From positions 1 through 21,816 of IMG/VR virus record IMGVR_UViG_3300025596_000025: 21,816 nucleotides of DNA. One strand, written 5' to 3'. Source of the DNA: a virus. Below, piece by piece: positions 1 through 20,424 of this stretch (position 1 is the stretch's first letter; the number at the start of each line of letters is the position of its first letter). The position numbers and the translations under genes were made by a program. The notes beneath the pieces were generated by a model, which worked only from the letters and a program-made list of their open reading frames with translations, searched no databases and was not told the origin of the DNA.

Positions 1-6
1 ATACGA

Positions 7-1068
7 ATGGCTAACTACATAACACCTTACTCTTCTGATGGTTTAAACTACTCAGTAGAAGTAGCAGGTGTAAATTCTTATATAGCTACTAATCCTGTAG
101 TTGATATAAAGTATGATGCTATAAGTGCCTTACAGCCTCAAGACTTCGCTAGAAATTTCTCTACTCGTATTAAACCAGGGTATGATGTGAAGAAAGCGGA
201 ATGGTGGGAGATTGTTATTGTAGCTGTACTAGTTATTATTATTATAATACTGACTGTACTATCATATTTGTTCCCTCCGTTTGGTGCATCAGTAAGTCCG
301 CTTGCTGCTGCTAGTATCGTATTACTTATAGGATCTTTGACTCTGACAGGTTTAGCTATGTATTGGGCTGAGAATGGTAGTCCTGGTGCAGCTCAGATAG
401 CAGGTATTGCAGCAGAGTACTTAGGTTATGCAGCTATGATAACTGGTGTTGCAGGTGCTACACAGAGTCTGATAGCACAACAAGGAACTATGACAGTACT
501 TCAAGGATTTCAAGCAGCTGGATCATTTATAGCGGTAGGTGGAGAGATTGCACAACAAGCTGGTTGGGTAGATGAAGAGACAGCACAGATTATCAAGATA
601 GTTGGTGCTGTACTAACAGTGTCAAAACTGTTCACAGCCCAACCTGTTCCAGTAGCTAAAGGAAGTGTGCCAAAAGGTGCAACTCCTCCTATAGATGTTC
701 CTCCTGTTGCACTACCGCCTCTACCTCCTATAGATGTTCCTACATTTGGATTAATACATCTAGCTAATGTACCTACGCCAATGATTATAAACTCGTTACT
801 TAGTTTTACTAATTCATTGTTTACTACGTATATTACAGTAATTGCTCCACCTGCAGAAGGTATAGAAGCTCAAGAAGATAAGCTACGTGCTCAAGAGAAA
901 GAACTTGAAACACTTAATCCTGAGAATAGTGAAGCTATATGGAATTCTTATACAGATCCGTATGGAAGTATATTTGAAGTAGGTGATATATATGAGAAAT
1001 CGTACATAATGCTTACTAGTGGTAGAAATAGATTACTAATGGATAAACATTATGTATCTGGTTATTGA
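7..1068 (+). CDS. putative membrane-spanning virion/ejection protein (353 aa)
   Basis: I do not recognise a named family. The protein has two strongly hydrophobic stretches, roughly residues 67-89 (an Ile/Val/Leu run after a Trp-Trp pair) and 98-119, followed by an Ala/Gly-rich amphipathic segment to about residue 180. A Pro-rich linker at about 225-245 contains the repeat PPIDVP twice. A short charged coiled-coil-like stretch at about 285-300 precedes a C-terminus ending in HYVSGY. It lies first in a run of five + strand virion-type genes ending in a virion RNA polymerase, so I infer an internal or ejection protein that could insert into the host envelope during DNA delivery. Only six bases precede the ATG and they contain no in-frame stop, so the true start may lie upstream of the window. 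The coding call is firm; the role is inference. Confidence 0.8.
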   Translation: MANYITPYSSDGLNYSVEVAGVNSYIATNPVVDIKYDAISALQPQDFARNFSTRIKPGYDVKKAEWWEIVIVAVLVIIIIILTVLSYLFPPFGASVSPLAAASIVLLIGSLTLTGLAMYWAENGSPGAAQIAGIAAEYLGYAAMITGVAGATQSLIAQQGTMTVLQGFQAAGSFIAVGGEIAQQAGWVDEETAQIIKIVGAVLTVSKLFTAQPVPVAKGSVPKGATPPIDVPPVALPPLPPIDVPTFGLIHLANVPTPMIINSLLSFTNSLFTTYITVIAPPAEGIEAQEDKLRAQEKELETLNPENSEAIWNSYTDPYGSIFEVGDIYEKSYIMLTSGRNRLLMDKHYVSGY

Positions 1069-1077
1069 TCAGATTTA

Positions 1078-1086
1078 TGGTATAAT
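1078..1086 (+). promoter_or_regulatory. extended -10 promoter (TGnTATAAT) for late virion genes
   Basis: The 47-base gap between the 353 aa and 195 aa genes holds TGGTATAAT, a perfect extended -10 element (TG at 1078-1079, TATAAT at 1081-1086), about 30 bases before the ATG at 1116. No good -35 hexamer lies 16-18 bases upstream (CTGGTT is the best-placed candidate), as is common with extended -10 promoters or activator-dependent ones. It would drive the 195, 558, 930 and 2011 aa genes through host sigma-70-type RNA polymerase. In phage N4, late promoters are read by host polymerase with help from the phage SSB; whether that holds here is inference. Confidence 0.5.
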
Positions 1087-1115
1087 TTTAAAATATAATA
1101 ATAAAAGGTACTAAT

Positions 1116-1703
1116 ATGACTGCATTTCAAAAACGACTAGCACATAAAAGATGGGTGGAAGCTGGCGGAGCTATGCCAGGGTACACAGGCAAACCTTTAG
1201 AAGCATTCGAAAAAGTGTTTACTAGTCAAGGACGAGCAGATGCTAGAAACTCGTTTGGTCAAACTATCGGCTCAGATGGTAAAGGTTTATACACAGGGGA
1301 GATAAATTATGATAATGTAATACACGTAGACTCCCCTGTGAGTAATCGTATAGATAGGGACTCTGTAAGTTACTGGGGTGGTCAATATACTGGTGCTGAT
1401 GGTAAGATGTACGAGAAAGAACTGTTTGGTGATGATTATGAAGTTGGAACTGGAGTTGATGCAAAAAAGACTGGTGATGAAAAGGGTACTGATTGGGGTA
1501 TGGATGGATATGGAGGAGTAGCTCTAGGTGCTGGACAATTAGGCCTTGGTGTTATGAGCTACTTAGAAAACCAAAAGACTGCTGATAAACAACGTCAAGT
1601 TATGGACCAGCAAATAGAGAATAATACTTTTGCACTTGGTACAGCTAAGAAAAAACAAGCAGCTATGGATAGAGACTTTGGTCGTAGACCAGGAGGAATG
1701 TAA
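1116..1703 (+). CDS. small putative virion-associated protein (195 aa)
   Basis: No named family is recognised. The start is supported by AAAGG about seven bases before the ATG. The protein begins with a basic segment (MTAFQKRLAHKRWVEAGG), has a Gly/Asp/Tyr-rich polar middle (residues about 45-130), then a short Gly-rich hydrophobic patch (about 132-148). A charged helix follows, rich in Gln, Lys and Asn (about 149-190), that looks coiled-coil competent. Similar small proteins with a Gly patch followed by a Gln-rich helix are common among internal virion proteins of podoviruses; that is a general impression, not a family match. It sits between the membrane-segment protein and the coiled-coil protein, eight bases upstream of the next Shine-Dalgarno-driven start. 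A 10-bp perfect inverted repeat lies inside it (1292-1340). Confidence 0.78.
   Translation: MTAFQKRLAHKRWVEAGGAMPGYTGKPLEAFEKVFTSQGRADARNSFGQTIGSDGKGLYTGEINYDNVIHVDSPVSNRIDRDSVSYWGGQYTGADGKMYEKELFGDDYEVGTGVDAKKTGDEKGTDWGMDGYGGVALGAGQLGLGVMSYLENQKTADKQRQVMDQQIENNTFALGTAKKKQAAMDRDFGRRPGGM
1292..1340. repeat. GC-rich 10-bp perfect inverted repeat inside the 195 aa gene
   Basis: CACAGGGGAG at 1292-1301 is the exact reverse complement of CTCCCCTGTG at 1331-1340, with a 29-base AT-rich loop. Seven of ten bases in each arm are G or C in a genome that is clearly AT-rich, so the stem stands out. It lies fully within coding sequence. It could form an mRNA hairpin or be coincidental. Confidence 0.7.
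1691..1696 (+). promoter_or_regulatory. ribosome binding site AGGAGG fixing the start at 1705
   Basis: AGGAGG sits eight bases before the ATG at 1705, within the last codons of the 195 aa gene. It selects 1705 over the upstream in-frame ATG at 1630, which lies deep inside the preceding gene and has no comparable site. Confidence 0.85.
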
Positions 1704-1704
1704 G

Positions 1705-3381
1705 ATGCCTATCAGACCTAATTTTAGTCTTGGTAACGTAGTAGATCCAACTAAGGGTGCACAAGCAGCGTTATCTAACGTTGGTACTATTATGCAACAA
1801 CAAGCAGATATTAAAAACGAAAGACTTAAAGCAGAAGATCGTGCAGCTAGACTAGTTATGTTACAAGACCAAGCCGAAAGACAAAGGGTTGCTGCAGATA
1901 GAGAGACTGAAACTTACGATTTAGCTCAGAATCAACGTCAAGGTGCAATGCTTTTAGGTGACATGGAAAACCCTCAAAATACTGTACTTACTCAGCAAGT
2001 AGATGATAAGTATACTGCATTAATTGACCAGTATAAAGACCAAAACTTAGAGGGTAATGCAGCCTACACAAAAGACCTAGATGCTTTAAACACTAAATTA
2101 TACTCAGCCTTAGGTGACGGGTCACAAATAGATGGTACTAAAGTAGATATGGTTTTAAACAGAGATCCAATTGCGTTTAAAAAACAAGCGTTTGATAAAC
2201 TTATAGCTACTGGTAACTTTACACCTACTGAAGCATCTGCTCAAGTAGCTAATGAAATGGCACGTAGATATCCAGTTAGTTCAGCTGAAGATCGTAAAAT
2301 GACTCAACAGTCTTTAGATCTAGCACTTAAACAACAAATGAAAAGTCGTGGTACTGGAAGTGGTATGACTGTTAATGAAGATGGTACAATCTCTATTGGA
2401 GCAGGTAACCAAAAAACTGTTACATCAGAAGGTGAAGCAGTAGAAAAAATTAATACTATGATTGATAGAATAAAATCTGGTAGAGATATATCTGGTTGGT
2501 TAGGAGAGAAGTTCTTAGGTAACAATAAAGCTACTAGAGCACGTTTACTAGAGTATGTTGATATTGCTCGTAAGAATAAAGTTCCAGATCATGCGATACT
2601 ATCTGAACTGCAAACAAGTGTATCTGATAATGTATTCTTAGATGATTCTATTGACATGACATCAAAAGAGTTTGTAGAGAATGCTAAGAAAAATGCAGCT
2701 AAGAGCCAAAGGACTACTACAAAAGGTGGTGGAACAGCTGGTTATCAAGCTGATGGTACAATAAATGGTGTTAGTACAGACGCACTTATTAAGCAGTACC
2801 TACTTGATTCACGTAGAAATCGTAACAGTGGTTTACGGGGTACAGCAACTGCTGCAGATCTCCCAGAGTTCTTTGGTACTAATACTGTAGCACCTAAAAC
2901 TGACCCTTTAAAAGATGTAGGTATTGATACAACTACTACACCTAAAGTTACTGCTGCTCCTGTAGTAGTTCCTAAGACTGTTACTGGTGAGCAAAAGACT
3001 AAAGTAGATATGTTGGATGAGGAGATAACAGCATTAGGCGATATTGATTCAACTGTTAAGTATGATAAAAAAGAAAAGCTAGTTATGAAGAAGAATACGA
3101 TTATTTTAGCTAATAACCTAAAAGCTTCTGTTAACTCTGGCGGTATCCAAAAGATGTCACAAGCAAATAAAGAGAACTGGATTGCTTTATATGATGGGGT
3201 AAAACAAGGTATTGTAAATACAACTGAATTACCTGGTGATATACTGAAATTCTATTTAAAGAATACTAAAAAGCTAGAAGGTATGATGGAAGGTGAACGT
3301 GCTAAGTTACTTAGACGTGAACAAGATGCATTAATACCTGATACAAACCCAATAGCTCCTCCTGTAAACCAAGGAATATAA
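1705..3381 (+). CDS. putative internal virion/ejection protein, coiled-coil rich (558 aa)
   Basis: No named family is recognised. I start the gene at 1705 because AGGAGG is eight bases upstream and the previous gene's stop is at 1701-1703; an in-frame ATG at 1630 would add 25 residues but overlap that gene by 74 bases. The N-terminal 30 residues are followed by a long helical stretch rich in Gln, Glu, Arg and Ala (about 25-90), a likely coiled coil. The middle is polar and helical; residues about 400-450 form a Thr/Pro/Val-rich linker (TTTTPKVTAAPVVVP); and the C-terminal 100 residues are Lys-rich. There is no signal peptide or membrane segment. The stop TAA is followed at once by the ATG of the 930 aa gene, so the two are translated together. 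Position and composition suggest an internal core or ejection protein. Confidence 0.82.
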   Translation: MPIRPNFSLGNVVDPTKGAQAALSNVGTIMQQQADIKNERLKAEDRAARLVMLQDQAERQRVAADRETETYDLAQNQRQGAMLLGDMENPQNTVLTQQVDDKYTALIDQYKDQNLEGNAAYTKDLDALNTKLYSALGDGSQIDGTKVDMVLNRDPIAFKKQAFDKLIATGNFTPTEASAQVANEMARRYPVSSAEDRKMTQQSLDLALKQQMKSRGTGSGMTVNEDGTISIGAGNQKTVTSEGEAVEKINTMIDRIKSGRDISGWLGEKFLGNNKATRARLLEYVDIARKNKVPDHAILSELQTSVSDNVFLDDSIDMTSKEFVENAKKNAAKSQRTTTKGGGTAGYQADGTINGVSTDALIKQYLLDSRRNRNSGLRGTATAADLPEFFGTNTVAPKTDPLKDVGIDTTTTPKVTAAPVVVPKTVTGEQKTKVDMLDEEITALGDIDSTVKYDKKEKLVMKKNTIILANNLKASVNSGGIQKMSQANKENWIALYDGVKQGIVNTTELPGDILKFYLKNTKKLEGMMEGERAKLLRREQDALIPDTNPIAPPVNQGI

Positions 3382-6174
3382 ATGTATTATGAAGAACAAC
3401 AAACCACTAGAGCTGACATAGGTGGTGTTGAACCTTTAACTCTTGCACAACAAAAACTAGCACGATTAGAGAAATCTAAGAATGCTAAGCTATCAACAAT
3501 TACAAATATGCCAGTAGAGTCTGAGTTTGTAATGCCTGATCGTTATACTGAGAATACTAACCAGACAGGTTTCATACCTTCTGCAAAGTCTAGTTTATTA
3601 CAAGCAGGCGGTAATCTTTATGATACAGCTATAGATGCTACAAATAGACTAACTGATGGTACTACAACTAAAGATAACACTTACTGGGATAGTATGTCAG
3701 AACAACAAGTAGCTGATCAAGCTGCTAACTATGATAGAACTTCTAATACACTAGCTATGAAAGATATGTCAAATCAAGTATCACAAGCTAATACACAATT
3801 CGGTGAAGGTCAATATTTAGATGCGTTAGGTAACTATGTTGGAGCTGCTGGAACTGCATTAGGGCAAGTAGATGAATTAGCGGGACAAAGTATGGGAGCT
3901 ATGGCAGAACTTGCTGGTGGTGGAGCTATTGTAGCTGGTACAGCGGCATTAGCACCTGAACTTGCTGGAGCCGCAGCAGTTGTTGGAGCTATAGCTAAAG
4001 TTGCACCTAAAGCTTCTAAAGTTCTAGGCTGGACTATGAAGACTATGCCTAAAGCTGCTGTATATGGAGCTGATAGAGCGCATGAACTAGCTAAAGAGTA
4101 TGAAGAAGCTACAGGTGAAAAGAAACCTATGAGTGAAGTAGCTGGAGATATGGCTATTGCATCACTACTAGGTGTAGTTGAACTAGGTGTTATCGGTAAA
4201 GGTGTTGCTAACATGACTGTTGGTACATTTAAAAACTCTATGGGACATCTAGCTAAGACTATAGATCCTCGTACAAGCGCTTTTAAATCTTTATCTGATA
4301 CAGTATGGCAAAAGGGTGTACAAATAGCTCAAACAGCTGGAGCTGAAGCAGGACAAGAATTCCTAGAGACTTGGCATGAGATTATATCTGGTGATAAGAA
4401 ATCTATTGGTACTCAACTACAGAGTAAAGAAGGCTGGGATAAAGCTATCGTTGGATCTATTGCAGGTCTTACAACTGGTGGTGCTATTGCAGCAGCGCCT
4501 AAAGCTATTACATTGCCAGCTGAAGTTGGTATATCAGCAACTAGAGGTGTAGTTGATTACGGCCTTAAGAAAGGTGCAGATATATCAGCTAATATGAGCT
4601 ATAAAGTCTTACCTGAAGCAGATAGACAAGCTATTGGTGATAAGTATGAAGCTGAAGATGCTTTACATAAAGAGTTTACATCTCAACTAGATGTACAGAC
4701 TAAAGACCTGGAAAACCTAACGGGAACTAAGGCAAACCTAGATGCATTTATGGCTGACCCTAAGAATGATATAGGTGGAGAATTACATACAGCTATCAAC
4801 AGTATCCAGAATGACATAAAGAAACGTGAAGCTGATGGTAAACCTATTACCGATACTGTAGCTAAGAACATTATTACTAAGGCTATAGCAGCTAATAATG
4901 CTGCATCAGTTAATTCTAAAGCACAATTAGAAGCTTCAAGAGCTAAAGATGCTACTTATAGATTGTATAGTAATACTAAAAAAGGTGTTAAAGGTGTAGT
5001 TGGTAAAGTACTAGGTAGTGATACAGTCAAGAAAGGTGTAGAAGCTACTAAAGAAGCTTATACAATTACTAAAGACTTTACAGGTAAAGCTATTGATTCT
5101 ACTGTAGATACAGCTAAGAACCTAGATAGTTCTGCAGCTCGTGGTTACATGGAATTCATTATAGATGGTAGAGCAGGTAAAGGTATTAAAGATAGTCAAA
5201 TTACTAAACAACTTAATAAAGTAGCGAATAAGATACCTGATACTGACCTAGATACTATGATTGCAGTAGCTAAGAATGATTCTAAAGTTAAAGCTGCCCT
5301 TATAAAAGTTAGAGATACTCGTAAAGCAGCTAAAATAAACTTAGGGCTACTATCTGATAAAGTTGCTACTATACCTAAGAACTCTATGGTATCTAAAGTT
5401 AGAGCTAATACTGTAACTACAGGAGCACAAGCTAAAATACTATTTAGCGAACTTCAAACACTTGCAAACCAGAAGGTTATAGACCCTAAAGTTAAAGCAC
5501 AGTTTGATGTAGCACTAGGTGTATTAAAAAAGTCCAAAGATATTACAGATGTTCAGTATAACACTCTTAGTAAACGTATTAAAAAGAACTATGTTCCTGA
5601 CACTATTAAAGATAAGTTTAATGAGTTAAAAGAAGAAGTAGTCAATATGGACACTGATGCTCTTAAATCTAGAGCCGGTAAAATGTTTACTAAGATTAAA
5701 GATATTACTAAACCATACTATGACAAAGCTAAGCCTGCTGCAGAGAAACTACACGAGGATACTAAACAGGTGATTAAGGACTTTACTGAAGACCAGACTA
5801 AAGACTTTAAGAGCGCTACAGAACGAATGAATTCAGGTAAAGATCTTGGTAACGCAACACATAGAGCTATAACTAATATTACTGCTGCCTATATAGTAAG
5901 TAATGCAGGTAATATGTCTGATATGGAAGGGATGAAAGCTCTATACTACGAGAAGTATCAAGATAGAGTAGATGCTAAAGTTAAAAGTATGACTACTGTA
6001 GATGAAAACATATATCCTATGGAAGCACCATCATCGTTTAAACATAAAGACAGTACAATACAAGATATAGAAGATCAGGTAGTTGAAACTTATAATGTTG
6101 AAAAAGTACCTATGAATGATGAAGATGTACCAGCTGCAATACTTGCACTATCTGAAGAAACTGTAATTTGTTAA
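3382..6174 (+). CDS. large internal virion/ejection protein (930 aa)
   Basis: This is a long protein rich in Ala, Gly, Lys and Thr. Residues about 171-207 form an Ala/Gly/Val hydrophobic segment, with another at about 355-375; between them lies AGAEAGQEFLETWHEI (about 318-333), a type of helix I associate with phage internal/ejection proteins. The C-terminal two thirds are Lys-rich repeats of helical heptads (for example VKKGVEATKEAYTITKDF), consistent with long coiled coils. No catalytic motif was seen. The ATG follows the previous stop directly, with AAGGAA about seven bases upstream. It lies immediately before the virion RNA polymerase gene; in N4-like phages the neighbours of that gene encode proteins packaged with it, so I infer a co-ejected protein, perhaps helping the polymerase or DNA cross the envelope. 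Confidence 0.85.
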   Translation: MYYEEQQTTRADIGGVEPLTLAQQKLARLEKSKNAKLSTITNMPVESEFVMPDRYTENTNQTGFIPSAKSSLLQAGGNLYDTAIDATNRLTDGTTTKDNTYWDSMSEQQVADQAANYDRTSNTLAMKDMSNQVSQANTQFGEGQYLDALGNYVGAAGTALGQVDELAGQSMGAMAELAGGGAIVAGTAALAPELAGAAAVVGAIAKVAPKASKVLGWTMKTMPKAAVYGADRAHELAKEYEEATGEKKPMSEVAGDMAIASLLGVVELGVIGKGVANMTVGTFKNSMGHLAKTIDPRTSAFKSLSDTVWQKGVQIAQTAGAEAGQEFLETWHEIISGDKKSIGTQLQSKEGWDKAIVGSIAGLTTGGAIAAAPKAITLPAEVGISATRGVVDYGLKKGADISANMSYKVLPEADRQAIGDKYEAEDALHKEFTSQLDVQTKDLENLTGTKANLDAFMADPKNDIGGELHTAINSIQNDIKKREADGKPITDTVAKNIITKAIAANNAASVNSKAQLEASRAKDATYRLYSNTKKGVKGVVGKVLGSDTVKKGVEATKEAYTITKDFTGKAIDSTVDTAKNLDSSAARGYMEFIIDGRAGKGIKDSQITKQLNKVANKIPDTDLDTMIAVAKNDSKVKAALIKVRDTRKAAKINLGLLSDKVATIPKNSMVSKVRANTVTTGAQAKILFSELQTLANQKVIDPKVKAQFDVALGVLKKSKDITDVQYNTLSKRIKKNYVPDTIKDKFNELKEEVVNMDTDALKSRAGKMFTKIKDITKPYYDKAKPAAEKLHEDTKQVIKDFTEDQTKDFKSATERMNSGKDLGNATHRAITNITAAYIVSNAGNMSDMEGMKALYYEKYQDRVDAKVKSMTTVDENIYPMEAPSSFKHKDSTIQDIEDQVVETYNVEKVPMNDEDVPAAILALSEETVIC

Positions 6175-6188
6175 ATTAAAGGACCACA

Positions 6189-9100
6189 ATGCCAAAATGT
6201 ATACCTAAAGAAGATCTATTAGCTGCTCTACACAGGCTCACTTTAAAAAATAAGGAAGAGATGGTAGATGATATCAAAAACGGTAAATCACTTAGATTTG
6301 ATGTTACCGAACTTAATCCAGAAGATCTAATAGGTTTTCTGAATAAGGATAATACTAGTATTAATAATATCAAAGAACTAGTTGGTGAAGCATTCTATAA
6401 AAAGATTGGGCATATTCAAAGTAAGGATACAGAGTCTGTATCTGATTTTATGGATAAAGTCTTCAATGACCCTAAACTCGCTATACCTAGAGCTATCGGT
6501 CTTCAAAATGTACTTGATGCTATTAAGGGTGAATCAGATAAAATGCATAATGAAGGTATTGATCTTAAAAGTATAAGCACTAATGGTATTACTCCAAATA
6601 TACCTACTAGACGTATTGCGTCTGTAATAGGCAGAAAGTTTATGTTTCAAACTGGTAATATGTTTAGAGGTACTAAAGAAGCTCCTTTATCAGGTGCTCA
6701 AATAGAAGTAATGTACCATAAGATAGGTATGAGAATACTAGAAGATCTTAAAGAGACAGGTGTAGTTGATATCAAAGAAGATGGTAACTACATTAATGAC
6801 TTTATTGAAGGTGATAAACATAGTTTAAAAGGTAGTGCAGCTAAGAAATCTGGAGTTACAGTAAGTCTCAACCTAGATAACCTAGTTACAGACTCTGAGA
6901 CTCAGCAAGACTATAATGCTGCTTACTTCACTAACCCAGCCCTAGCTAAAGACATATCTCGTAAGAAACGAGAGTCTAAAGATATAGCTCCTCAACTAGA
7001 AGTTATAGCTAGTATTCTTAGTGTTACTAATAACCTTACAGTACAATCTACTCAAAGTATCCCTAGTACTATTAAGCCAGACAAAGATAAGATGCAAGCT
7101 ATGAAGGATAAAGACTTTAATAATGCACCTGCTGATATACTTGCAGCTAGAGAATCTATAGCTGAGACTGGTACACATTTAACTGGTGCTAATCATAAGT
7201 TTATTAAGCAGCTTGCTGAAGCATACCAGAAAAATGGTTTAGAGAAAGGATTTGAAGACTTTGCACTGACATTATTAGCAGGTAGAAACAACAGTGGTGA
7301 CTTAAAAGGACTATTTGGTGTTAATGACTTAGAGGCTACACTAGGTAAACAAGAGAGTCAAAGTGGTCAGAACTTATCTACTGTAGCTCCTATGGAAGAC
7401 TTATTGAATAGTTACCTAGGACTATTAGATGGTAATGGTACCCCTAAAGATATGTACTTTAACCATAGCTTTGTAAGAAATATGAGACTGCATAATATGG
7501 ATACTATTCTTAACTCACAAACTAGTAAGTTTGCAAGGCATGGGCTTACTACAGGTGAAGTTACATTTGATCTTTACACTTCAGAAGGCGTTGAGGCTTA
7601 TAAGCACATGGTATCTGAACTAGCAGATGAGTCTGGATTCAGTATAGAAGACATTATATACAAAGGTGATAACAAGACTCTTGAAGCTTACTTAAATACG
7701 TACACTGAGTTATTTGAAGGTACTAATGAGACTCCGTTGGGACGTAAATTAGGGTTCCTAGATAAGATTGTTAAAGCTAATCCCCAGTTTAACGGAGTAC
7801 CTACAGCAGCACTTAGCTCATTTCAAGCTATACTAGATGTACGAAAGGGATTACTGACTGGTTCACTTACTACTGAGTACTCGACTAAATCAGATGCTAT
7901 CGCCTCAGGTGGTCTAATTGGACTAATGGAAGCACTAGGTACAAACCCAGCAGTGGCTGATATCCTTAGAGAGATGAACGTACTAAACTCTGATAAAGAT
8001 CAGTCTTTAAATGATGTGTACGGCATTTTACAGAGAGCTATAAGTAAGTATACAGAAATGGAAGATATGACATTTGAAGAGGACTTAGGTAGAGATATTA
8101 TAGATGAGAAATACTCACCAGCTATGACAGCTCTTATGAAGTCAGGTATATATACTAAGACAAATAAGGATGGTAAAGAGTATTATGATACAAGACAACT
8201 ATCTAAAACTCCTACTATGACACTTATTTATGGTCAAGGTGAAAAAGCTGCTAAGGGCACAGTTGCAGAAGACATTGCAGATCTACTATTTACTGCTGTA
8301 CAGAAACAAGATAAGATGAGTGAACCTGCTGGAAAGTATATAGCCGAGTTACTAGGTAGAGATGTTGATATACTACAAGATCCTACTATATATAATGAAG
8401 TAGTTGAAGCTCTGCAAAAGAGTAACGCACCAGCTGATATTTTATACATAGAACTTAATAAGAATGTAGCTGACGCACTATTTAAAGAACGTAATAAGAC
8501 ACTCAAAGATGTATTTGATGTATTGACAGACATACAGAAGAAGCAAGGTGGACACATGCATCTTATGCCAGTTTCTGCTATGCTTGATCCATCTATAGAG
8601 TTCACAAAAGATAACCTAAAAAAGTATGGAATGCCTATACAAAAGATATTTGATGTAGAGAAGTCTGTTGAGGATGCTGATGGTACGGTACATGAAATAT
8701 CTACTAGAGAGGAACGTCTTACATTTACAACTGTACTAGCTAATGCTACACACAATAAAGATTCATATGACATCTATACAGCTATAGCTGAAACAGACAA
8801 AGAACATGATGGTAATGGTTATATTGTAGTACATGATGAAATTATTACTGACCCGGTAACAGGTGTAAAATCTAAGAAGAACTATATTAAGTCGTTTAAA
8901 AGAATGGCCAGAGACTATGATATTTCAGATGTACTTTTACAAGCGGCTGAGTTGTATGACCCAACTAACTCAGGTATACCTAAACTTAGAGCTAAAATTG
9001 ATAAAGCGATTAAGATCAAACAAGATATTATAGATGGTGAGTTCAATGATGATAGCCAGTCTATATTCGGACAAGACGCTACTAAAGTGCCTGATCCTGA

Positions 9101-12100
9101 ACTTGGAACACCTAAACCTAGAAAACCTAAAAAGGTTGTAAAATCTGAGGGAAAGTCTGATAAGGTTACTACGGAAGTAGAGCCTAAGGCCAAAGAGTCT
9201 GCTCAAGAGAGAGACTCAGTGTTACAATCTAAGTTAGGTAAACTATTTCCAGAGATAAGTGTAACTTATTTAAAAAGCCCATCATATAAAGGTGCATTAT
9301 TTAACGATATATCTATAGTTATAAACTCATTAACTAGTACAGAAGATACATTACCTCATGAGTATGCACATCATTACATTTCTATGTATAAAGATAGTGA
9401 CTTAGTGAAAGAAGCTATAAAGAAATGGGGATCTGAGGAAGCACTAGTTCAAGCTATAGGTGAACAGACTGTTAAACAAAAAGGTGAAGCTTACGGTTGG
9501 TGGATAGACTTCTCTGGTTGGGTGAAGTCTATGTTTACCAAAGCAAGTAAAGAAGACTTACGTAATCTATTGACAGACTCTTTCTTGGCTAATGAATCGT
9601 TAGGTATTAAAAATACTGATACTACGTTTGCTTTATACCAACTAGGTGATAAACCTAATGAGAAGTCCACTAGCTACATAAATAAAGATGGTATGTCTAA
9701 AGCTGAGATGTTTGCTAACTCTAAGATGACAAATCTGAATGATGCTGTATACTCTATGCTACTAAGTAAAGTAGAAACTAGAGGATTATCAGCAAGGAAG
9801 AAGATTCATAATGCACTAAAGACTAAGTTTCCTGTATACACTGATGTAGCTAATAAGATTCAAGGTATATATGATAGTTCTGAAGCATTACAACAACTAC
9901 TTGGATTTATGCACATAGGTGGATTAAATGATAAACAAGCTAAGAATAAGTTGCAGTCACTAGCTAGTAAGATACACCACGATAGAAATACTAGAGATAA
10001 TCAAACCATGTCTAAGATTGATGATCTTACTGAACTATTTACTGAAAAAGACAATGAGAACCTGTATAACTTTATTAATAAGGGTTCACTTGCTGATTAC
10101 TTCCTGTATAGCACAGAGAATAGGTCAGAAGAGTCTATAACAAATCGTATAGCAGAATTACAAGGTAAGCTATCTAAAGACGATATGGAGCTTGTGACAC
10201 ACTTAACTTCTCTGTATACAGAGAACAAAGTTATTAACAGTGAACTAGGGCATACGGTAGATTATGATATGACTAGTCAAGGTGCTAAAGATGTCAAGGA
10301 GTTAATAGCTTTACAAAGTATTGCGTTTAACGGTACTAAAGAGTTTGTAGAAATGCAAGAGAACAATCTAGAGTTATTTAACATACTTAAAGATAATGCT
10401 ATTGCTCTAAGTATGATTCATGCAGACCTAAATAAGGGCAGTACACCTCATGTGAAAGGTACACTTATTGGTGAATACTATGAGTCACAGTCTCACAAGA
10501 AAGTTATTACAGTGAATGATATTGAGAAATTTGGGTATGAGGAAGGTAGTGGTTGGAAAATCATTGATATGCCTGAAGAGGGTAAGTTAGGACTAGCTAT
10601 TAGGAAAGTAGAGGATAGTTTCTACACAGAAGGTGCAGGAATTGATCTAGGTACAACTAATACAGATCTAATAGTACCTAAGCATATAGCTGAAAGTGTA
10701 AACCTAGCTGATAATAATATAGTTAAAGTAGGAGATAGTTATAGAAAGATACTAACTTCTGATCATAAGAGTCAAATGGGTATTATTACTAAACCTGGTC
10801 ATTCATTGATTCACTCTACTTCACATATGATTGCTGCACAAGAAGCAGATATTATAAGAAAAGAAGTACTTAAAGCGGAAGTAAGATCTATATTTGAAAC
10901 TAAAGATAGCTCAGAGATTGCTAAAGTACAAGCTAGGATTGCTGATCCAGATTCTGATCACCCTTACTTTATTAAACTAGGTAAAGGTGTGAACTATGTA
11001 GAACTAGATGCGGACATTAAAGCTAAGTATAAACCTGTAGATGTAAAACTATCTAACTTAAATGGTTTTAAAAATGAGGTATCTCTAGTTCGTAAAGATA
11101 TGGCTCATTGGTTGACAGGTGATAATGCAACATACTTTAATAATAGTCCTAAGATTCAAAAAGCTAGTAAGATCGTTAAGCAACTAGTTAGTGGGGCTAA
11201 GATAGGAATGGCTGTAGCTAATCCAGCTAAGCTTATGATGGACACTGTATCTAATACAGCCTTCTTAACAGCTATGGGTGTTCCAGCAGGATTTCAAGTA
11301 GATCAAGGTAAACAAATCTTAACAGAGATGGGTACACTAGGTACACTCAGAACTGAGATCGCTAGATTACGAGTACAGAAAGTAGCTTATCCAAAAGATA
11401 CAGAGTTACAAGCTAAATATGATAATTTGATGCAGGAGCTAGAAAATCATAAGTTGAATGGTGTAGTTAAGAGAGGTTTTATGAACTCACTCAGTTCTGA
11501 TATTATGAATAACAACTTAGACTCATTAAGTGGTCTACAAGCTGATATAAATAAAGGATTACGTTACTTACTTAATAAAGATGATGGATCAGCTAACATA
11601 GTTAATAAGTTTATTATGGACGTATCTAATGTTACTGGTGATGGTACTGAAGCGTTAAAGTACATTGGGAATATTGTTAAGAAGGCAGATTCTACTAAAG
11701 AGATGGGTAGAATGTTAGATGGAGCAGCAGAGCGTATTAAGAAGATCAAAAACAAAGAAGATGCTGTTGCATACTTAAATAACTTTGTACTATCTCCTAA
11801 CTCTGAAATTGTGAAAGGTGGTGTTTGGTATAATGATGCTATTGATACAGTAGGTAAAGAAACGTACTATCGTTACCTGACTGAGATTGTAAAAATGGAT
11901 CCTAAACTAGCTGAGGTTAAGGTCATTGAGTCTTTCCCTGATTACAAGGAAAACATGCCAATGGCCATGAAAGTACTAAGTGACTACGGAATATTAATGT
12001 TTCCATCGTACTGGACAAGAATTCACTTACCAGCATATAGAATGTTAACACAACGTAGTGTTAGTACAGGAATAGAACTAGGTTTAGCTAACTTAACTAA

Positions 12101-12224
12101 TACACATCTAGAAACTATCCTAAATGCTACAATACCAATAAAGCTAGGGACTAACCTAGATATAATCCAGACACCTACTAGTCATATAGGTATAAACTCG
12201 TTACTTCCAACCCACTTATTTTAA
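6189..12224 (+). CDS. virion-associated single-subunit RNA polymerase fused to a zincin-like domain (2011 aa)
   Basis: T7/N4-type RNA polymerase signatures appear in order. A degenerate T/DxxGR site is seen as VRNMR (429-433), followed by NSQTSKFAR (442-450), comparable to the N-x-Q segment after that motif in T7. Motif A is DAIASGG (569-575; T7 D537-GSCSGI). Motif B is RQLSKTPTMTLIYG (669-682), an exact R-x3-K-x7-Y-G. H855 in ATHNKDS is followed by motif C VVHDE with H882-D883; H855 to H882 is 27 residues, as in T7 His784-His811. A-to-B spacing is 100 (T7: 90). Residues 1057-1062 read HEYAHH, an HExxH zinc motif, with E1083/E1084 as possible third ligand. The last 900 residues resemble phage ejection proteins, including a hydrophobic patch at about 1670-1705 and FPDYKENMP to FPSYWTRI (1916-1945). 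AAAGGA precedes the ATG. By analogy with N4 gp50, it would be packaged and transcribe early genes after entry. It is far shorter than N4's roughly 3500 aa protein. Confidence 0.88.
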   Translation: MPKCIPKEDLLAALHRLTLKNKEEMVDDIKNGKSLRFDVTELNPEDLIGFLNKDNTSINNIKELVGEAFYKKIGHIQSKDTESVSDFMDKVFNDPKLAIPRAIGLQNVLDAIKGESDKMHNEGIDLKSISTNGITPNIPTRRIASVIGRKFMFQTGNMFRGTKEAPLSGAQIEVMYHKIGMRILEDLKETGVVDIKEDGNYINDFIEGDKHSLKGSAAKKSGVTVSLNLDNLVTDSETQQDYNAAYFTNPALAKDISRKKRESKDIAPQLEVIASILSVTNNLTVQSTQSIPSTIKPDKDKMQAMKDKDFNNAPADILAARESIAETGTHLTGANHKFIKQLAEAYQKNGLEKGFEDFALTLLAGRNNSGDLKGLFGVNDLEATLGKQESQSGQNLSTVAPMEDLLNSYLGLLDGNGTPKDMYFNHSFVRNMRLHNMDTILNSQTSKFARHGLTTGEVTFDLYTSEGVEAYKHMVSELADESGFSIEDIIYKGDNKTLEAYLNTYTELFEGTNETPLGRKLGFLDKIVKANPQFNGVPTAALSSFQAILDVRKGLLTGSLTTEYSTKSDAIASGGLIGLMEALGTNPAVADILREMNVLNSDKDQSLNDVYGILQRAISKYTEMEDMTFEEDLGRDIIDEKYSPAMTALMKSGIYTKTNKDGKEYYDTRQLSKTPTMTLIYGQGEKAAKGTVAEDIADLLFTAVQKQDKMSEPAGKYIAELLGRDVDILQDPTIYNEVVEALQKSNAPADILYIELNKNVADALFKERNKTLKDVFDVLTDIQKKQGGHMHLMPVSAMLDPSIEFTKDNLKKYGMPIQKIFDVEKSVEDADGTVHEISTREERLTFTTVLANATHNKDSYDIYTAIAETDKEHDGNGYIVVHDEIITDPVTGVKSKKNYIKSFKRMARDYDISDVLLQAAELYDPTNSGIPKLRAKIDKAIKIKQDIIDGEFNDDSQSIFGQDATKVPDPELGTPKPRKPKKVVKSEGKSDKVTTEVEPKAKESAQERDSVLQSKLGKLFPEISVTYLKSPSYKGALFNDISIVINSLTSTEDTLPHEYAHHYISMYKDSDLVKEAIKKWGSEEALVQAIGEQTVKQKGEAYGWWIDFSGWVKSMFTKASKEDLRNLLTDSFLANESLGIKNTDTTFALYQLGDKPNEKSTSYINKDGMSKAEMFANSKMTNLNDAVYSMLLSKVETRGLSARKKIHNALKTKFPVYTDVANKIQGIYDSSEALQQLLGFMHIGGLNDKQAKNKLQSLASKIHHDRNTRDNQTMSKIDDLTELFTEKDNENLYNFINKGSLADYFLYSTENRSEESITNRIAELQGKLSKDDMELVTHLTSLYTENKVINSELGHTVDYDMTSQGAKDVKELIALQSIAFNGTKEFVEMQENNLELFNILKDNAIALSMIHADLNKGSTPHVKGTLIGEYYESQSHKKVITVNDIEKFGYEEGSGWKIIDMPEEGKLGLAIRKVEDSFYTEGAGIDLGTTNTDLIVPKHIAESVNLADNNIVKVGDSYRKILTSDHKSQMGIITKPGHSLIHSTSHMIAAQEADIIRKEVLKAEVRSIFETKDSSEIAKVQARIADPDSDHPYFIKLGKGVNYVELDADIKAKYKPVDVKLSNLNGFKNEVSLVRKDMAHWLTGDNATYFNNSPKIQKASKIVKQLVSGAKIGMAVANPAKLMMDTVSNTAFLTAMGVPAGFQVDQGKQILTEMGTLGTLRTEIARLRVQKVAYPKDTELQAKYDNLMQELENHKLNGVVKRGFMNSLSSDIMNNNLDSLSGLQADINKGLRYLLNKDDGSANIVNKFIMDVSNVTGDGTEALKYIGNIVKKADSTKEMGRMLDGAAERIKKIKNKEDAVAYLNNFVLSPNSEIVKGGVWYNDAIDTVGKETYYRYLTEIVKMDPKLAEVKVIESFPDYKENMPMAMKVLSDYGILMFPSYWTRIHLPAYRMLTQRSVSTGIELGLANLTNTHLETILNATIPIKLGTNLDIIQTPTSHIGINSLLPTHLF

Positions 12225-12388
12225 TAAGAGGATTTGGACTTAGCGTAGAGGAATACCCCACCACCTATAAAACCTAGTATTACAATAGGTAGTATTATGT
12301 ATGATAAGTAAAAGGTTACTATCATTACTACACCTAGTACTATCACTAAGAATATAGCCTTAAAGGCTGCTGTTATAGTATTAATCAT
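12221..12388 (-). CDS. small membrane protein, last gene of the replication operon (55 aa)
   Basis: The gene reads from ATG at 12388 to TAA at 12221-12223 and encodes 55 residues, starting MINTITAAFKAIF and ending KSKSSY. Residues about 9-28 and 30-50 are almost wholly hydrophobic, so it should be an integral membrane protein with one or two helices and a short basic tail. AAGGGA lies about eight bases upstream of the ATG, and the start is one base after the TGA of the 73 aa gene, so translational coupling is likely. Its stop overlaps the stop of the convergent RNA polymerase gene by four bases. A holin-like or superinfection role is conceivable, but no family is recognised. Confidence 0.72.
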   Translation of the reverse strand: MINTITAAFKAIFLVIVLGVVMIVTFYLSYIILPIVILGFIGGGVFLYAKSKSSY

Positions 12389-12389
12389 T

Positions 12390-12611
12390 TCAATCCCTTA
12401 ACTTTACTGGACTAAGAAATAGGTATATACTAAAGATAGCACTTGATATTGTGGCAATGACCATTCCACCTAATGTACCTCCAAGTATAACTGTTAATAG
12501 TGCAAATACGCCTATGTCTAATACTGCATTAGCAAATTGACCAGACTTAAATTTAATGACAATAACGATTATATTGAATCCCATTGCCGCCCCAAGCAAT
12601 AGGAATTCCAT
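12390..12611 (-). CDS. small two-helix membrane protein (73 aa)
   Basis: The protein has hydrophobic stretches at about residues 2-19 and 30-68, broken by a polar KFKSGQ loop and a Gly-rich turn (GGTLGG), and ends in SPVKLRD. This gives two or three membrane helices. I recall similar short phage membrane proteins of unknown function with a K-F-K-x-G-x-x-A loop, but I cannot name the family. The ATG shares a base with the stop of the 77 aa gene (TAATG), which implies coupled translation; the Shine-Dalgarno is weak (AAAGAGA). Together with the downstream 55 aa gene it forms a small membrane-protein pair at the end of the operon. Confidence 0.75.
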   Translation of the reverse strand: MEFLLLGAAMGFNIIVIVIKFKSGQFANAVLDIGVFALLTVILGGTLGGMVIATISSAIFSIYLFLSPVKLRD

Positions 12612-12844
12612 TACTTGTCTCTTTCTTTTATTATCATCTCAATACGAGTCATAGGGTTTACTTCAGTATCTGCTGCTGCATCTAATAAAGCTCCTATTTG
12701 TTGTGCTGAGAATCCAATCATACTAAGAGATCTAACTGCACTAGTAATAGTAGAGAGTGTATCAATTACACCTTCAGCTCTAACATCTACATTCAGATCC
12801 TCATTGTTGTTTGTACATATAGTTTTTATAAAATTAAGTTTCAT
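12611..12844 (-). CDS. hypothetical phage protein (77 aa)
   Basis: The product is not recognised. It is a soluble small protein with a polar N-terminus (MKLNFIKTICTNNNED) and a predicted helical remainder, including SLSMIGFSAQQIGALLDAA (about 40-58). AAGGAAAG precedes the ATG, which shares one base with the stop of the DUF3310 gene (TAATG). It sits between a nucleotide-metabolism-type gene and two membrane-protein genes, which does not define a role. Confidence 0.75.
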   Translation of the reverse strand: MKLNFIKTICTNNNEDLNVDVRAEGVIDTLSTITSAVRSLSMIGFSAQQIGALLDAAADTEVNPMTRIEMIIKERDK

Positions 12845-13224: not shown

Positions 13225-13227
13225 TGC

Positions 13228-16565: not shown

Positions 16566-17255
16566 TTAGATGTCGTCATCACTTGCTGGTACACTAGTTG
16601 GTGCATTTTGTCCTGCTGGAGTAACACCTGAAAGCATAGCTTGTAACTTAGCTTGACATGCAGCACTGTTAGTATTCTTGTAGTTAATTTCTACACGAGC
16701 TTTAGCATCTTCAGCTACAGTCTCCATAGTTGTACCTTCTGCAGCATCAGAATTAATTTCCATACCGTTACGTTTCTTAGTATCAAAGAAGTTGAATACA
16801 TCAATCTCTTGTCTTACCCAAGTCTTACTAGCGTCTTTCTCATCTGCAGAAATTTCTGAGTATGTAATAATGTAAAGCTTCTTGCCTTTAGCTGCTGGAT
16901 AGTTTACTACGTCTACAGTCTTACCTGATTTGTATGTTTCTGTACCTGCTTGCTCTTTACCTAGGACAGTCTTAAGGTCATTACCTGTAGCTTTAACAAT
17001 GTTAGTTAGTTGTGACATTGTACGCTTAATTGCTGCTTCTGCTTTAGTCGCATCGTTGTTTGAAGTAAATCCAACATACTCTGCTGTAAGTCCTGAAGCA
17101 TCTTTAAATACTATTTTAACTCTTTTATCTTCAATACTTTGCATTGATTCAATTGTAACTAGGTGTGCACCTGCTGTATTAATCTTAGTTCCAGTTTTAC
17201 CTAAACTATCCTGTGTTTCTTTATCTAAATTGTTGTATTGGTCTAATAAACCCAT
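16566..17255 (-). CDS. candidate single-stranded DNA-binding protein (229 aa)
   Basis: No sequence motif proves the assignment. The N-terminal 100 residues alternate in beta-strand-like stretches (KINTAGAHLVTIESMQSI, then RVKIVFKDASGLTAEYVGF) compatible with an OB fold. The middle has KLYIITYSEIS and WVRQEIDVFNFFD. The last 30 residues are Ala/Pro/Ser-rich and disordered, ending ASDDDI, much like the acidic tip of bacterial SSB tails. It lies 64 bases after a Sak4-like ATPase gene; phage Sak4 genes are known to be paired with SSB genes. It also occupies the place of the N4 SSB (gp45) relative to the primase gene. AAGGAT precedes the ATG. If this is an N4-type SSB it could take part in replication, recombination and late-promoter activation. 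Confidence 0.72.
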   Translation of the reverse strand: MGLLDQYNNLDKETQDSLGKTGTKINTAGAHLVTIESMQSIEDKRVKIVFKDASGLTAEYVGFTSNNDATKAEAAIKRTMSQLTNIVKATGNDLKTVLGKEQAGTETYKSGKTVDVVNYPAAKGKKLYIITYSEISADEKDASKTWVRQEIDVFNFFDTKKRNGMEINSDAAEGTTMETVAEDAKARVEINYKNTNSAACQAKLQAMLSGVTPAGQNAPTSVPASDDDI

Positions 17256-17319: not shown

Positions 17320-18057
17320 TTATTTACTAAGTGAAATCTCTAACTCTGCTAATGAGTTCTCTTTTGACTCATACGGTGATAATGAACGTCTAATACGTGT
17401 ACTGTCAAATGATTCCATGTTATCTGCTTTAAACTTGAAATCTTCTATAGTTAGTACTGTGTTAAAGTGAGACTCTACCATACGGAAGTGGTCTTTACCT
17501 TTTACAGTTGTGAACTTCTCCGACTCAGTATCTTTTGGATCCTTAGCTGGTTTGTAGTGTGACATTACATATACAAACTTACCATGTGTATACGTCTCTT
17601 CTTTCAACATTCTGAACCATGAGTATAACTCTTTGTTATATTGAATCCACGAAGCAAATCCGTTGGATACTGTAACATAGTGTTTTTCAAACTCATCTAC
17701 TAGTGTAGAGAAGCTGTCAATTATGATACGGTCTACATCCGGATGAGCTATTGCTTTACGCATATGCATCATAATACCATCAATATCTTTATACTTAACA
17801 TTTCCAGCGTCTTTGTATAGATAGTCTGTACCATTTTCATACACATTCTTTATCTTTATCATACTTCTATACTGCGATTCATCGTCTTCTGGTAATCCCT
17901 TACCTTCTAAGTCATAAATTACTGTACGAGCTTTGTCTTCGTCTGACAGCATCTCTACTGCACTCGATTTCCCAGCATTAGGGAATGCGGCTATAAGCAC
18001 CGGGAATGCCCTAGTTAGTTTCTTTCGTTCTTCAAGTGTCTTGTCTTGTAAATTCAT
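17320..18057 (-). CDS. Sak4-like RecA-fold P-loop ATPase (245 aa)
   Basis: The Walker A motif is at residues 24-31, AFPNAGKS, with Ala in place of the first Gly, and Lys30-Ser31 would bind ATP phosphates. The Walker B motif is RIIIDSFS at 110-117 with Asp114. A beta-strand FVYVMSHYK (161-169) follows, as the sensor strand does in RecA-like cores. A short N-terminal region and this layout fit phage Sak4/AAA_24-type proteins, which act as single-strand annealing or recombination ATPases with SSB; N4-like phages have a comparable ATPase next to their primase and SSB genes. The ATG at 18057 directly follows the stop of the 788 aa gene (TAAATG), with GGAGG just upstream in that gene's last codons. 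The ATPase call is firm; the precise role is inferred from context. Confidence 0.85.
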   Translation of the reverse strand: MNLQDKTLEERKKLTRAFPVLIAAFPNAGKSSAVEMLSDEDKARTVIYDLEGKGLPEDDESQYRSMIKIKNVYENGTDYLYKDAGNVKYKDIDGIMMHMRKAIAHPDVDRIIIDSFSTLVDEFEKHYVTVSNGFASWIQYNKELYSWFRMLKEETYTHGKFVYVMSHYKPAKDPKDTESEKFTTVKGKDHFRMVESHFNTVLTIEDFKFKADNMESFDSTRIRRSLSPYESKENSLAELEISLSK

Positions 18058-20424
18058 TTATCCCTCCATTTGTGATAAGTATGTTTTTAATACTGTATTT
18101 TCTAATCGAACTTCATCCATAGGATTAGTCCAACAACTATTAAGATAGTGTATGACTTGTAAGTACTGTTCTTGGTTGGCACCTTGATCTCTCAAGTGCA
18201 TTGAAGCTCTAGCTAGTGAGATAGAACCTGCACCTGCTTTACAGTGAATTACATAATCAAATATCTTATTTACGTTTGCCATAATGTCTTTCATAGCTTT
18301 AGTCTTAGCCTGAGTAGTTACAGGCTTTGTTTTAGGTACTAATCCTTCATCTTGGTTGTTTGCACATTGACTAATAAGTTCCTCTATCTCGTAGAGTCTA
18401 CCTGTAGTGTTTGAATAAACTTCTGATCCTGCATAACCATAAATAGGTTGAGCTGGATTACCACTAGTTGGATCACCTTCAATTGTAAGCTCTTCACATA
18501 CACTTTTCATAATACATCTATATAGATTGAGTTGAGTCCCATCTATCTCGACACTTACTGGAAGTATAATTCTAAACTTGTACTTGTTTTCCCGATCTGA
18601 TGTTGTACATATGATATGCTTGAACTCTGATAGGAAGTTATGCATTTGCACAATATCTATCTCAGATTTATCTACATCTATAGTTAGTAACTTAGTAGAT
18701 GAAGCTATGTACTTTTGGTTACGATTCATCGTAATAACGTCACCATTTTTATTAGGACCATCATTATACCTGAATACGTTGTAAACTGTATCATTAGTTA
18801 CGATATTCTCTAAGAACTTCATAGAGCCTGTTTTGTAATGGTCAAAGTTATCTAGGTAAGCTATTCTATCTGCTTTAGGTACACCTGGTACCTTATTGTA
18901 GGATAGTGCATACTCACCTGTATCTTCAACTTTCTTGTATGGAGCATACTTAAATAACCTAGCTTCGTTGCAGTAGGATACAACTCCGTCTTTAGATAAG
19001 TAACTGTTCATAGGATGAAGCAGTTCATGGAAATCGTTTGATACTCTTGTAACCCAACCATTTACCATAGCTGTATCTAGAGTTACTTCAGTTAATTTAC
19101 CTTCTTTAAACTTGTCACCAAGTAATCTGTAGGCTTTAGATGAAGTAAGTATTACAAACTTCTCCATATACTTAGAATTATATTCTGCAAAGTATATAGC
19201 TGAAGCTAAATGTGTTTTAGAGATTTCATTCTCTCCACTCATTAAAGTCCATAATGCTGCCAATCTAGCTGTTTTAAAAGCTCTACCTGCAACCTCTACC
19301 TGACTAATAGATGAGTCTTCTGCTAACTCAGCTCTCATTGCACCGAACTGAAAATAGTCTGTATACAGTTGAGCTGCGTCTTCTGCAAAAGATACTACTC
19401 TGTTTGCTTCAGATGATAACATTCTAGCTACAACTTGTGTAGTCATGTCATCTAATTCTGTAGATGTTTTTGATACTACCACACGTCTTCTGTTAGCTAT
19501 CTCACGGACTTCTGCAATAGTTCCAGGTATTTCGTTGTTCTCAATGTTTTCTTCCTCTGAAGGCATTGTGTACCACGATCTACGAGCCATCATTGCATGA
19601 AATATCATAGATATAATTTCAGATACTCTCTCATCTCCAAATATAATTTTAGGAGATGAATGAAGTAATGCATTTGGATACATAGATTCAATTGCTGCTT
19701 CTCTAACTTCTGCTGTTTTATAAGATGGTGCAGGAGCATTACCCATATCATATAGAATACCAAGCATCTCTAGAACTTCTTCTGTTGTCTTACCACTCTT
19801 TAGTGCTAAACCAAATTCTCCCATAACTACACAGGGAATACCAAATTCACTAGTTGCCATACGATTTAGTTTAGATGATAGTCCACCTGATGTAGTTTTA
19901 GAACCCATTTCCAAGTCTTCTAACTCTCTAATGAAATCTACGTAGTCTGAATACACTAAATCAGATTCTACTGCATTAGGAACTTCCTTCTGCTTCTCTC
20001 TGAGAGCTATACGTTTTGCACGTTCCTCTTCTTGTTTCTCACGTTCTACTTTAATAAGTTGGAATGCTGTTGAACAAGCTGACTTCATAGTTGTTACTGA
20101 AGCATCTTTTCCACTACCTGATCCACTAATATTAATAGCATAGTAGTTGATTGATAGTTGATCCGGTGAATACACAGCATCATTTATTACAGGTCTTAAT
20201 TGACCTAGTAGATGATTAAATACAAAGTTCACTGTTGTACATGAGCTAATGTTACTAAACCCTGGAGACTTCGCTGTAACTAGCTTGATACCTTGCTGTA
20301 CTATGTTTGGTAGTCTATCTACTTCAAACTTATCACTTACTTTTATAACACTAGCTAATTCGGTTTCATATAATTTTACAATATGTCTTACATTATCTAG
20401 TCGTTCTTCTGGTGTTATTTCCAT
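18058..20424 (-). CDS. replicative helicase-primase-like protein: P-loop (DUF3987-like) plus AEP primase-like half (788 aa)
   Basis: The N-terminal half holds a P-loop, SGSGSGKD (100-107), with Asp where Ser/Thr is usual, a charged coiled coil (126-148), a Walker B-like IIFGDE (260-265), and a helical ATPase lid (RVVVSKTSTELDD to about 420). This is the layout of DUF3987-type phage helicase-like proteins. The C-terminal half resembles an archaeo-eukaryotic-type primase: TIDVDKS (581-587) gives the DxD metal site (Asp583, Asp585), TTSDRENKYKFRIILP (607-622) matches the strand-turn where SxH is expected but has Asp610 in that place, and EGDPTSGNPAQ (649-659) offers the third acidic residue, Asp651. 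It would unwind DNA and/or make primers at the fork. GGGAGG precedes the ATG, which shares one base with the upstream stop. The Sak4-like gene starts directly after its stop. Confidence 0.78.
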   Translation of the reverse strand: MEITPEERLDNVRHIVKLYETELASVIKVSDKFEVDRLPNIVQQGIKLVTAKSPGFSNISSCTTVNFVFNHLLGQLRPVINDAVYSPDQLSINYYAINISGSGSGKDASVTTMKSACSTAFQLIKVEREKQEEERAKRIALREKQKEVPNAVESDLVYSDYVDFIRELEDLEMGSKTTSGGLSSKLNRMATSEFGIPCVVMGEFGLALKSGKTTEEVLEMLGILYDMGNAPAPSYKTAEVREAAIESMYPNALLHSSPKIIFGDERVSEIISMIFHAMMARRSWYTMPSEEENIENNEIPGTIAEVREIANRRRVVVSKTSTELDDMTTQVVARMLSSEANRVVSFAEDAAQLYTDYFQFGAMRAELAEDSSISQVEVAGRAFKTARLAALWTLMSGENEISKTHLASAIYFAEYNSKYMEKFVILTSSKAYRLLGDKFKEGKLTEVTLDTAMVNGWVTRVSNDFHELLHPMNSYLSKDGVVSYCNEARLFKYAPYKKVEDTGEYALSYNKVPGVPKADRIAYLDNFDHYKTGSMKFLENIVTNDTVYNVFRYNDGPNKNGDVITMNRNQKYIASSTKLLTIDVDKSEIDIVQMHNFLSEFKHIICTTSDRENKYKFRIILPVSVEIDGTQLNLYRCIMKSVCEELTIEGDPTSGNPAQPIYGYAGSEVYSNTTGRLYEIEELISQCANNQDEGLVPKTKPVTTQAKTKAMKDIMANVNKIFDYVIHCKAGAGSISLARASMHLRDQGANQEQYLQVIHYLNSCWTNPMDEVRLENTVLKTYLSQMEG

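Follow-up and report, generated by a model that had tools for sequence, protein, structure and literature searches.

A predicted split N4-type virion RNA polymerase with a cysteine on each side of the break

A split virion polymerase and its terminal cysteines

The viral DNA analysed here, IMG/VR record IMGVR_UViG_3300025596_000025 (the window, meaning the whole stretch of 21,816 nucleotides, positions 1 to 21,816 of the record), is well supported by sequence comparison as encoding a split virion RNA polymerase (vRNAP) of the type known from phage N4. The N-terminal domain (NTD) appears to be encoded by one gene (3382-6174), and the RNA polymerase (RNAP) domain and C-terminal domain (CTD) by the next (6189-12224). 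Each protein has a single cysteine, and both cysteines lie at the break. We consider it probable (about 80%) that the two halves are re-joined by a disulfide between these terminal cysteines. The features of the two genes, all on the + strand, are as follows.

3382..6174, +, putative detached vRNAP NTD, 930 amino acids (aa), sole cysteine at residue 930; HHalign against the gp50 NTD and fused relatives
6169..6171, +, TGT codon of Cys930, the final residue of the NTD protein; sole cysteine, among the final 6 residues in every relative
6175..6188, +, 14-nt gap with an AAAGGA ribosome-binding-like sequence; the next gene is in another frame
6189..12224, +, predicted vRNAP (RNAP and CTD part), 2011 aa from ATG, sole cysteine at residue 4
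6198..6200, +, TGT codon of polymerase Cys4; sole cysteine, at residue 3-6 in two-piece relatives, an invariant column
6189..9098, +, predicted single-subunit RNAP domain, about residues 1-970; AlphaFold2 model with Foldseek and VIA-align matches
7893..7895, +, motif A, Asp569, invariant in 19 relatives
8193..8234, +, motif B, R669...K673...Y681-G682; R, K and Y invariant, G varies
8751..8753, +, His855, invariant in 19 relatives
8832..8837, +, motif C, His882-Asp883; Asp invariant, His varies
9357..9371, +, HExxH motif HEYAH (1057-1061) in the C1 subdomain, between RNAP and CTD; H1057, E1058 and H1061 nearly invariant
9216..12221, +, predicted CTD, about residues 1010-2011; HHalign against the gp50 CTD

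Identity of the polymerase gene

The original prediction described 6189-12224 as one gene for a compact virion polymerase of 2011 aa, and both the open reading frame (ORF) and the motif residues (D569, R669-x3-K673-x7-Y681-G682, H855, H882-D883) are indeed present, with 27 residues from H855 to H882. The spacings presumably resemble those of T7 RNA polymerase. In an alignment of 19 relatives (24-58% identical to the window protein), D569, R669, K673, Y681, H855 and D883 are unchanged; G682 and H882 are not invariant, and two relatives have Y-D at 681-682. The PHROG RNA-polymerase family 414 matches residues 596-721 (E 2e-5), while a Pfam search of the protein found no family and a single-sequence search against PDB sequences gave nothing useful.

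An AlphaFold2 model of residues 1-977 reached a pLDDT of 79.5 and a pTM of 0.80. Its best Foldseek matches were the N4 mini-vRNAP 3c46 (E 2.8e-13) and T7 RNAP 3e2e (1.2e-12), the N4 gp50 cryo-EM entries 9pnq/9pnt/9pnr were also among the top matches, and VIA-align gave Z-scores of 22.0 against T7 RNAP and 17.6 against N4 2po4. The palm, fingers and thumb fold sought by structure prediction is thus seen in the model. The invariant motif residues and the matches of this model to N4 mini-vRNAP and T7 RNAP lead us to conclude that the predicted product is a genuine single-subunit RNA polymerase. T7 RNA polymerase shares this fold and motifs A, B and C; it is synthesised after infection and is not known as a virion component.

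Relatives were drawn from phage records and IMG/VR, both partial collections, and the window itself is a 21.8-kb fragment. A tblastn search of 50,697 phage records gave two full-length relatives, from Alteromonas phages R22Y and PT11-V19 (26-27% identity), and one short match, and about 20 full-length relatives of 1884-2142 aa were present in IMG/VR. The genome contigs searched held no relative of the window protein, and there is therefore no host or prophage link. Separately, region 1016-1156 around the HExxH motif is 41% identical to part of the unannotated faecal phage contig MT835645.

Relation to N4 gp50

When the family profile was compared by HHalign with a gp50 profile built from eleven diverse Schitoviridae sequences (3022-3760 aa), the window protein (1-2011) aligned over its whole length to N4 gp50 1013-3495 (probability 100, E 1.7e-72), and the family CTD matched the gp50 CTD (probability 99.7, E 1.4e-25). 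In the N4 structure the RNAP spans 1007-2101, a 100-residue low-complexity linker (907-1006) precedes it, the CTD follows a second linker (2102-2123), and an HExxH motif is known in C1 (PMC12633501). Set against these limits, the alignment indicates that the window protein starts at the RNAP start and is without only the NTD. The break corresponds to an inter-domain linker, since the polymerase begins at N4 position 1013, just beyond 907-1006, and the two N4 linkers agree with the two kinds of break described below.

These results revise the earlier picture of a compact polymerase of distinct architecture. Its assignment as an N4-type virion-polymerase homologue holds, but the protein is not a small self-contained enzyme, as the NTD is the adjoining upstream gene. 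Likewise, the polymerase core is N-terminal as proposed (about 1-970), and the supposed ejection-type C-terminus proves to be a homologue of the N4 gp50 CTD. Together, the NTD protein and the polymerase amount to 2941 aa; one-piece vRNAPs span 2842-3820 aa (PMC10654107), and the combined length falls inside these limits. Schitoviridae gp50 is one polypeptide of NTD, RNAP and CTD (about 3000-3800 aa) without cysteine; the window instead has a 2011-aa protein with the NTD gene in another frame, and one cysteine per half. N4 gp50 itself is a Cys-free chain of 3500 aa, and its motif C reads F-D where the window protein has H-D.

The upstream gene

In every locus with full flanks, genes for a gp53-like protein, a gp52-like protein and a protein in the gp51 place are followed by an extra gene of 904-1248 aa and then by the polymerase, so that the order gp53-gp52-gp51-NTD-RNAP stands in for gp53-gp52-gp51-gp50. 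A profile-versus-profile matrix gave matches only on the expected diagonal, the gp51 pair being not significant. The upstream family matched the gp50 NTD with probability 89 and E 2.3e-6 (score 66, with a maximum of 16 in 60 column shuffles). Furthermore, its profile matches proteins in which the NTD is fused to the polymerase (L087, L092, L096, L097 and the unsplit L094) with probabilities of 98.6-99.2 over 254-308 columns, and it is this match to the N-termini of the bridge proteins that makes the NTD identity firm. The possibility that the 930-aa protein is gp51 was rejected, as there was no match (probability 0.1).

Cysteines at the breaks

We counted cysteines because two alignment columns proved invariant, that of C930, which ends the upstream protein, and that of polymerase C4. 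In all of the first 17 loci (17/17) each protein has a single cysteine; in the NTD protein it is one of the last six residues, and in the polymerase it is at residue 3-6. One-piece gp50 is Cys-free in 11/11 cases, gp51 and gp52 are also Cys-free, and gp53 has some cysteines. The Cys-free state of gp50 was already known, and earlier work accounted for it by the route that the protein takes, via the tail and across the oxidising periplasm (PMC3715699, PMC3915230).

Loci that turned up after the first 17 served as a further test of the rule. Across all N4-type chains there is a cysteine on both sides at 32/32 breaks, which fall at different domain boundaries and include partial downstream pieces at contig ends. 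Within 94,249 aa, 66/67 cysteines lie at broken ends, no more than 12 residues from an N-terminus or 8 from a C-terminus, and no cysteine is found near the outer N- or C-terminus of any chain. Both TGT and TGC are used, the pieces lie in frames 0, 1 and 2, and the gaps run from -20 nt to 6.5 kb, which indicates that the constraint acts on the protein.

Breaks between RNAP and CTD carry cysteines in AD45-P4, L087, L097 and L069. In L087 and L097 a fused NTD-RNAP protein has one C-terminal cysteine and the separate CTD has one N-terminal cysteine, and in the cultured phage AD45-P4 the gp50 region consists of 2481 aa (C2479) and 1409 aa (C4). Contig 3300010392_000731 has an NTD (C902), an RNAP (C3, C1000) and, after 6.5 kb of other genes, a CTD (C6). 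Longer chains follow the same order: a 112-kb virus (G004) has three pieces of 2644 (C2644), 3840 (C4, C3840) and 1455 aa (C4), and a 104-kb virus (G001) has four of 2713 (C2713), 1293 (C3, C1293), 987 (C3, C451, C986) and 1337 aa (C4), the middle pieces of both bearing a cysteine at each end. The unsplit L094 has none. Similarly, phage pSb-1, whose vRNAP is annotated as three ORFs that we treat as a sequencing or frameshift artefact, has no cysteine at all and served as a negative control. T7 gp15 and gp16 are Cys-free, and gp14 has one cysteine, at residue 2.

Some further observations concern these loci. The GenBank "potential frameshift" over N4 gp50 in AD45-P4 (L102:1606-13288) is probably a genuine split. 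At L120:10481-12108 two pieces are separated by an ORF on the opposite strand (about 278 codons, KilA-N/Rha-like by eye), and the ends of both keep their cysteines. Pseudoalteromonas phage Y3 (L131), described as N4-derived, encodes two giant neighbouring proteins without cysteine (3421 and 1027 aa), for which the annotations are DdrB-like and ADP-ribosyltransferase; separate giant proteins thus do not always carry paired cysteines.

In a tree built from the RNAP core, the 19 members of the window's clade (UFBoot 100) have the NTD-RNAP break in common, and L097 is sister to this clade. The sister of L069 is L020 (UFBoot 100); L069 has an extra RNAP-CTD break with two additional cysteines, and L020 lacks both. 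AD45, L087, L092 and L096 form another clade with the break after the RNAP (UFBoot 96). If the ancestor was in one piece, at least three breaks would have arisen separately, each with its cysteine pair; the direction of change may have been splitting or fusion.

Crass-type virion polymerases

The crass-type phage crAss001 was first looked at as a control, and eight more were then added (L121, L123-L130 in all: crAss001, DAC15, phi14:2, phi17:2, crAss002, cr128_1, Dulem virus 41, cr114_1 and cr50_1). All nine checked (9/9) have cysteines at adjoining termini of their polymerase proteins, which we take to belong to a different class of polymerase, the double-psi barrel type. The crAss001 proteins are gp47 (C2339), gp50 (C5, C1334, C2404) and gp49 (C5), and those of phi14:2 are gp078/077/076 with 1797 (C1797), 2180 (C3, C2179) and 1421 aa (C3). 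The annotated start of crAss002 gp_33 (L126:7270-20007) seems to be about 32 codons early, and an internal ATG (MSC...) is needed to fit the rule. The crAss001 pieces have been found in virions by mass spectrometry, and crAss001 virions have interchain disulfides in tail and portal parts (PMC10172136); the phi14:2 pieces are in virions according to the annotation of its record. In cr128_1, a small thioredoxin-like protein (WCGPC) is encoded near the polymerase genes (L127:5678-5923).

A proposed disulfide-coupled chain and its alternatives

The N4 NTD binds the membrane (PMC12633501), and injection is said to require the NTD, encapsidation the CTD (PMC4496689, its reference 78, citing unpublished data). 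If both hold, separate pieces would have to stay together for both steps. A head-to-tail disulfide that restores a linear chain is the simplest reading, because cysteines lie on both sides of the break and never at the outer ends. The chain would be cut at the flexible NTD-RNAP linker of N4, and NTD C930 and polymerase C4 would form an intermolecular disulfide in the virion, giving a continuous chain NTD-S-S-RNAP-CTD. The CTD would serve to package this joined chain, and the NTD would lead it through the tail. The reducing cytoplasm could then break the bond and free the polymerase from the membrane-bound NTD to transcribe the early genes. Virion presence, the bond, towing and release are all what we infer from sequence.

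Several points weigh against this proposal. Virions are assembled in the reducing cytoplasm, which makes the timing of bond formation an issue, and the proposed disulfide is read from cysteine placement. Compared directly, the upstream family and the Schitoviridae NTD match over only 63 columns, and the AlphaFold model of the upstream 930-aa protein is poor (pLDDT 46.6). The 32 breaks include L095, whose second piece has no identified homology. C451 in a middle piece of G001 (L119, reverse complement 11735-14698) is the sole internal cysteine of the N4-type pieces, and other internal cysteines occur in some crass pieces, where the rule looks looser. Finally, earlier authors held that it is the absence of cysteine that permits tail passage (PMC3715699, PMC3915230).

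An alternative that accepts the split as real gives the terminal cysteines other tasks: they could form homodimer disulfides between like pieces, bind metal, attach a lipid or be caught by an assembly factor. Sequence data cannot tell which cysteine pairs with which, and N4 gp50 is present at 4 +/- 1 copies per virion (PMC12633501), which would allow like ends to meet. However, this explanation is unlikely given that every break is marked on both sides and the outer termini never are, that middle pieces have a cysteine at both ends, an order that a dimer, metal or lipid role does not need, and that a metal site would need more than one cysteine per end.

The compact, self-sufficient polymerase of the original prediction, with an unrelated ejection protein upstream, would fit the complete RNAP and CTD within one 2011-aa ORF and the shortness of the direct NTD match. 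This account is largely refuted already and is very improbable: the upstream family matches the N-terminal part of RNAP-fused proteins, the gene has the place and size of an NTD in every locus with flanks, and the terminal cysteines are paired.

It is extremely improbable, too, that the TGY codons near the stop and start act at the nucleic-acid level, as a signal for translational coupling, frameshifting or bypass from which a fused chain results. The genes do often overlap by 1 nt or sit within 16 nt, but the pieces occur in all three frames, an antisense gene is inserted in a gap of 1.6 kb, another gap spans 6.5 kb of other genes, both cysteine codons are used and the flanking bases differ. 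Fusion by read-through or frameshift was rejected on the varied frames and gaps. It is hardly credible that the gene product is a catalytically inactive structural ejection protein of polymerase descent: activity is predicted from sequence, and G682 and H882 are not conserved, but Asp569, Arg669, Lys673, Tyr681, His855 and Asp883 are invariant in 19 sequences and the polymerase model is good.

Returning to the disulfide-joined chain, we lean towards a general device of tailed phages that inject RNA polymerases, in which ejected giant proteins would be cut at linkers into 2-4 (possibly more) pieces, coupled head to tail into a train by single disulfides between terminal cysteines, packaged and drawn through the tail as a single chain, and uncoupled by reduction in the cell, a solution repeated in N4-type phages and reached independently in crass-type phages.

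Comparison with known systems

Alteromonas phages R22Y and PT11-V19, whose polymerases are 26-28% identical to the window protein, share its split family, its gene order and the single terminal cysteine in both proteins. The 2083-aa R22Y relative has already been published as a vRNAP, in a paper that reports a very large vRNAP and neither a split nor cysteines (PMC11705849). AD45-P4 also has an N4-type vRNAP in two ORFs with one cysteine per broken end, but its break lies between RNAP and CTD; the ORFs of AD45-P1 were joined as a likely calling error, and the same N4-like survey dropped vRNAP relatives of less than 2500 aa (PMC10654107), a filter that would exclude the whole window clade. Crass-type modules (crAss001 gp47/gp50/gp49; phi14:2 gp078/077/076) resemble the window in having several giant virion proteins with cysteines at adjoining termini, and differ in polymerase class and in the internal cysteines of some pieces. 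No report of disulfides or terminal cysteines in virion polymerases was found in the literature searched, subscription papers, among them those on the phi14:2 polymerase structure and on the N4 vRNAP (2002), being outside its scope.

An enzyme of more than 3000 residues has to be packaged and to pass the narrow phage tail. If the proposal is true, cysteines at natural breaks in two polymerase classes would offer a testable account of this, a redox-cleavable covalent train, and the disulfide can be tested now, as the pattern is present in the cultured phages R22Y, PT11-V19, AD45-P4, phi14:2 and crAss001. The analysis also corrects annotation, as split vRNAPs had been taken for frameshifts or lost to the 2500-aa filter (PMC10654107), and terminal cysteines may help to locate partner pieces and correct start codons, as for crAss002. 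The upstream NTD gene, the cysteine pattern and the published R22Y relative had been overlooked in the original prediction.

Neighbouring genes

The window keeps the Schitoviridae order gp53-gp52-gp51-gp50 facing the genes for a single-stranded DNA-binding protein (SSB), Sak4 and primase, with the NTD gene added and ribonucleotide reductase genes inserted downstream. The remaining features are as follows.

1..1068, +, 3' portion of the gene for a gp53-like protein, truncated at its 5' end by the window edge; HHalign against Schitoviridae gp53, probability 100, E 1.1e-40
1116..1703, +, gp52-like ejection protein, 195 aa, no cysteine; HHalign against gp52, probability 98, E 1.5e-13
1705..3381, +, Cys-free protein of 558 aa at the place of gp51; gene order shared by every locus with flanks
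16566..17255, -, SSB-like gene of the downstream module, which Schitoviridae share; phrog_378, E 0.013, weak, and synteny
17320..18057, -, Sak4-like annealing protein; phrog_124, E 2.3e-9
18058..20424, -, DNA primase; phrog_2135, E 3.5e-60

The protein in the gp51 position gave no significant HHalign match to gp51 (probability 0.7) and is linked to it by position only. The large and small ribonucleotide reductase subunit genes lie at 13228-15964, between the polymerase and the SSB-like gene, and AD45-P4 has ribonucleotide reductase genes in a similar place.

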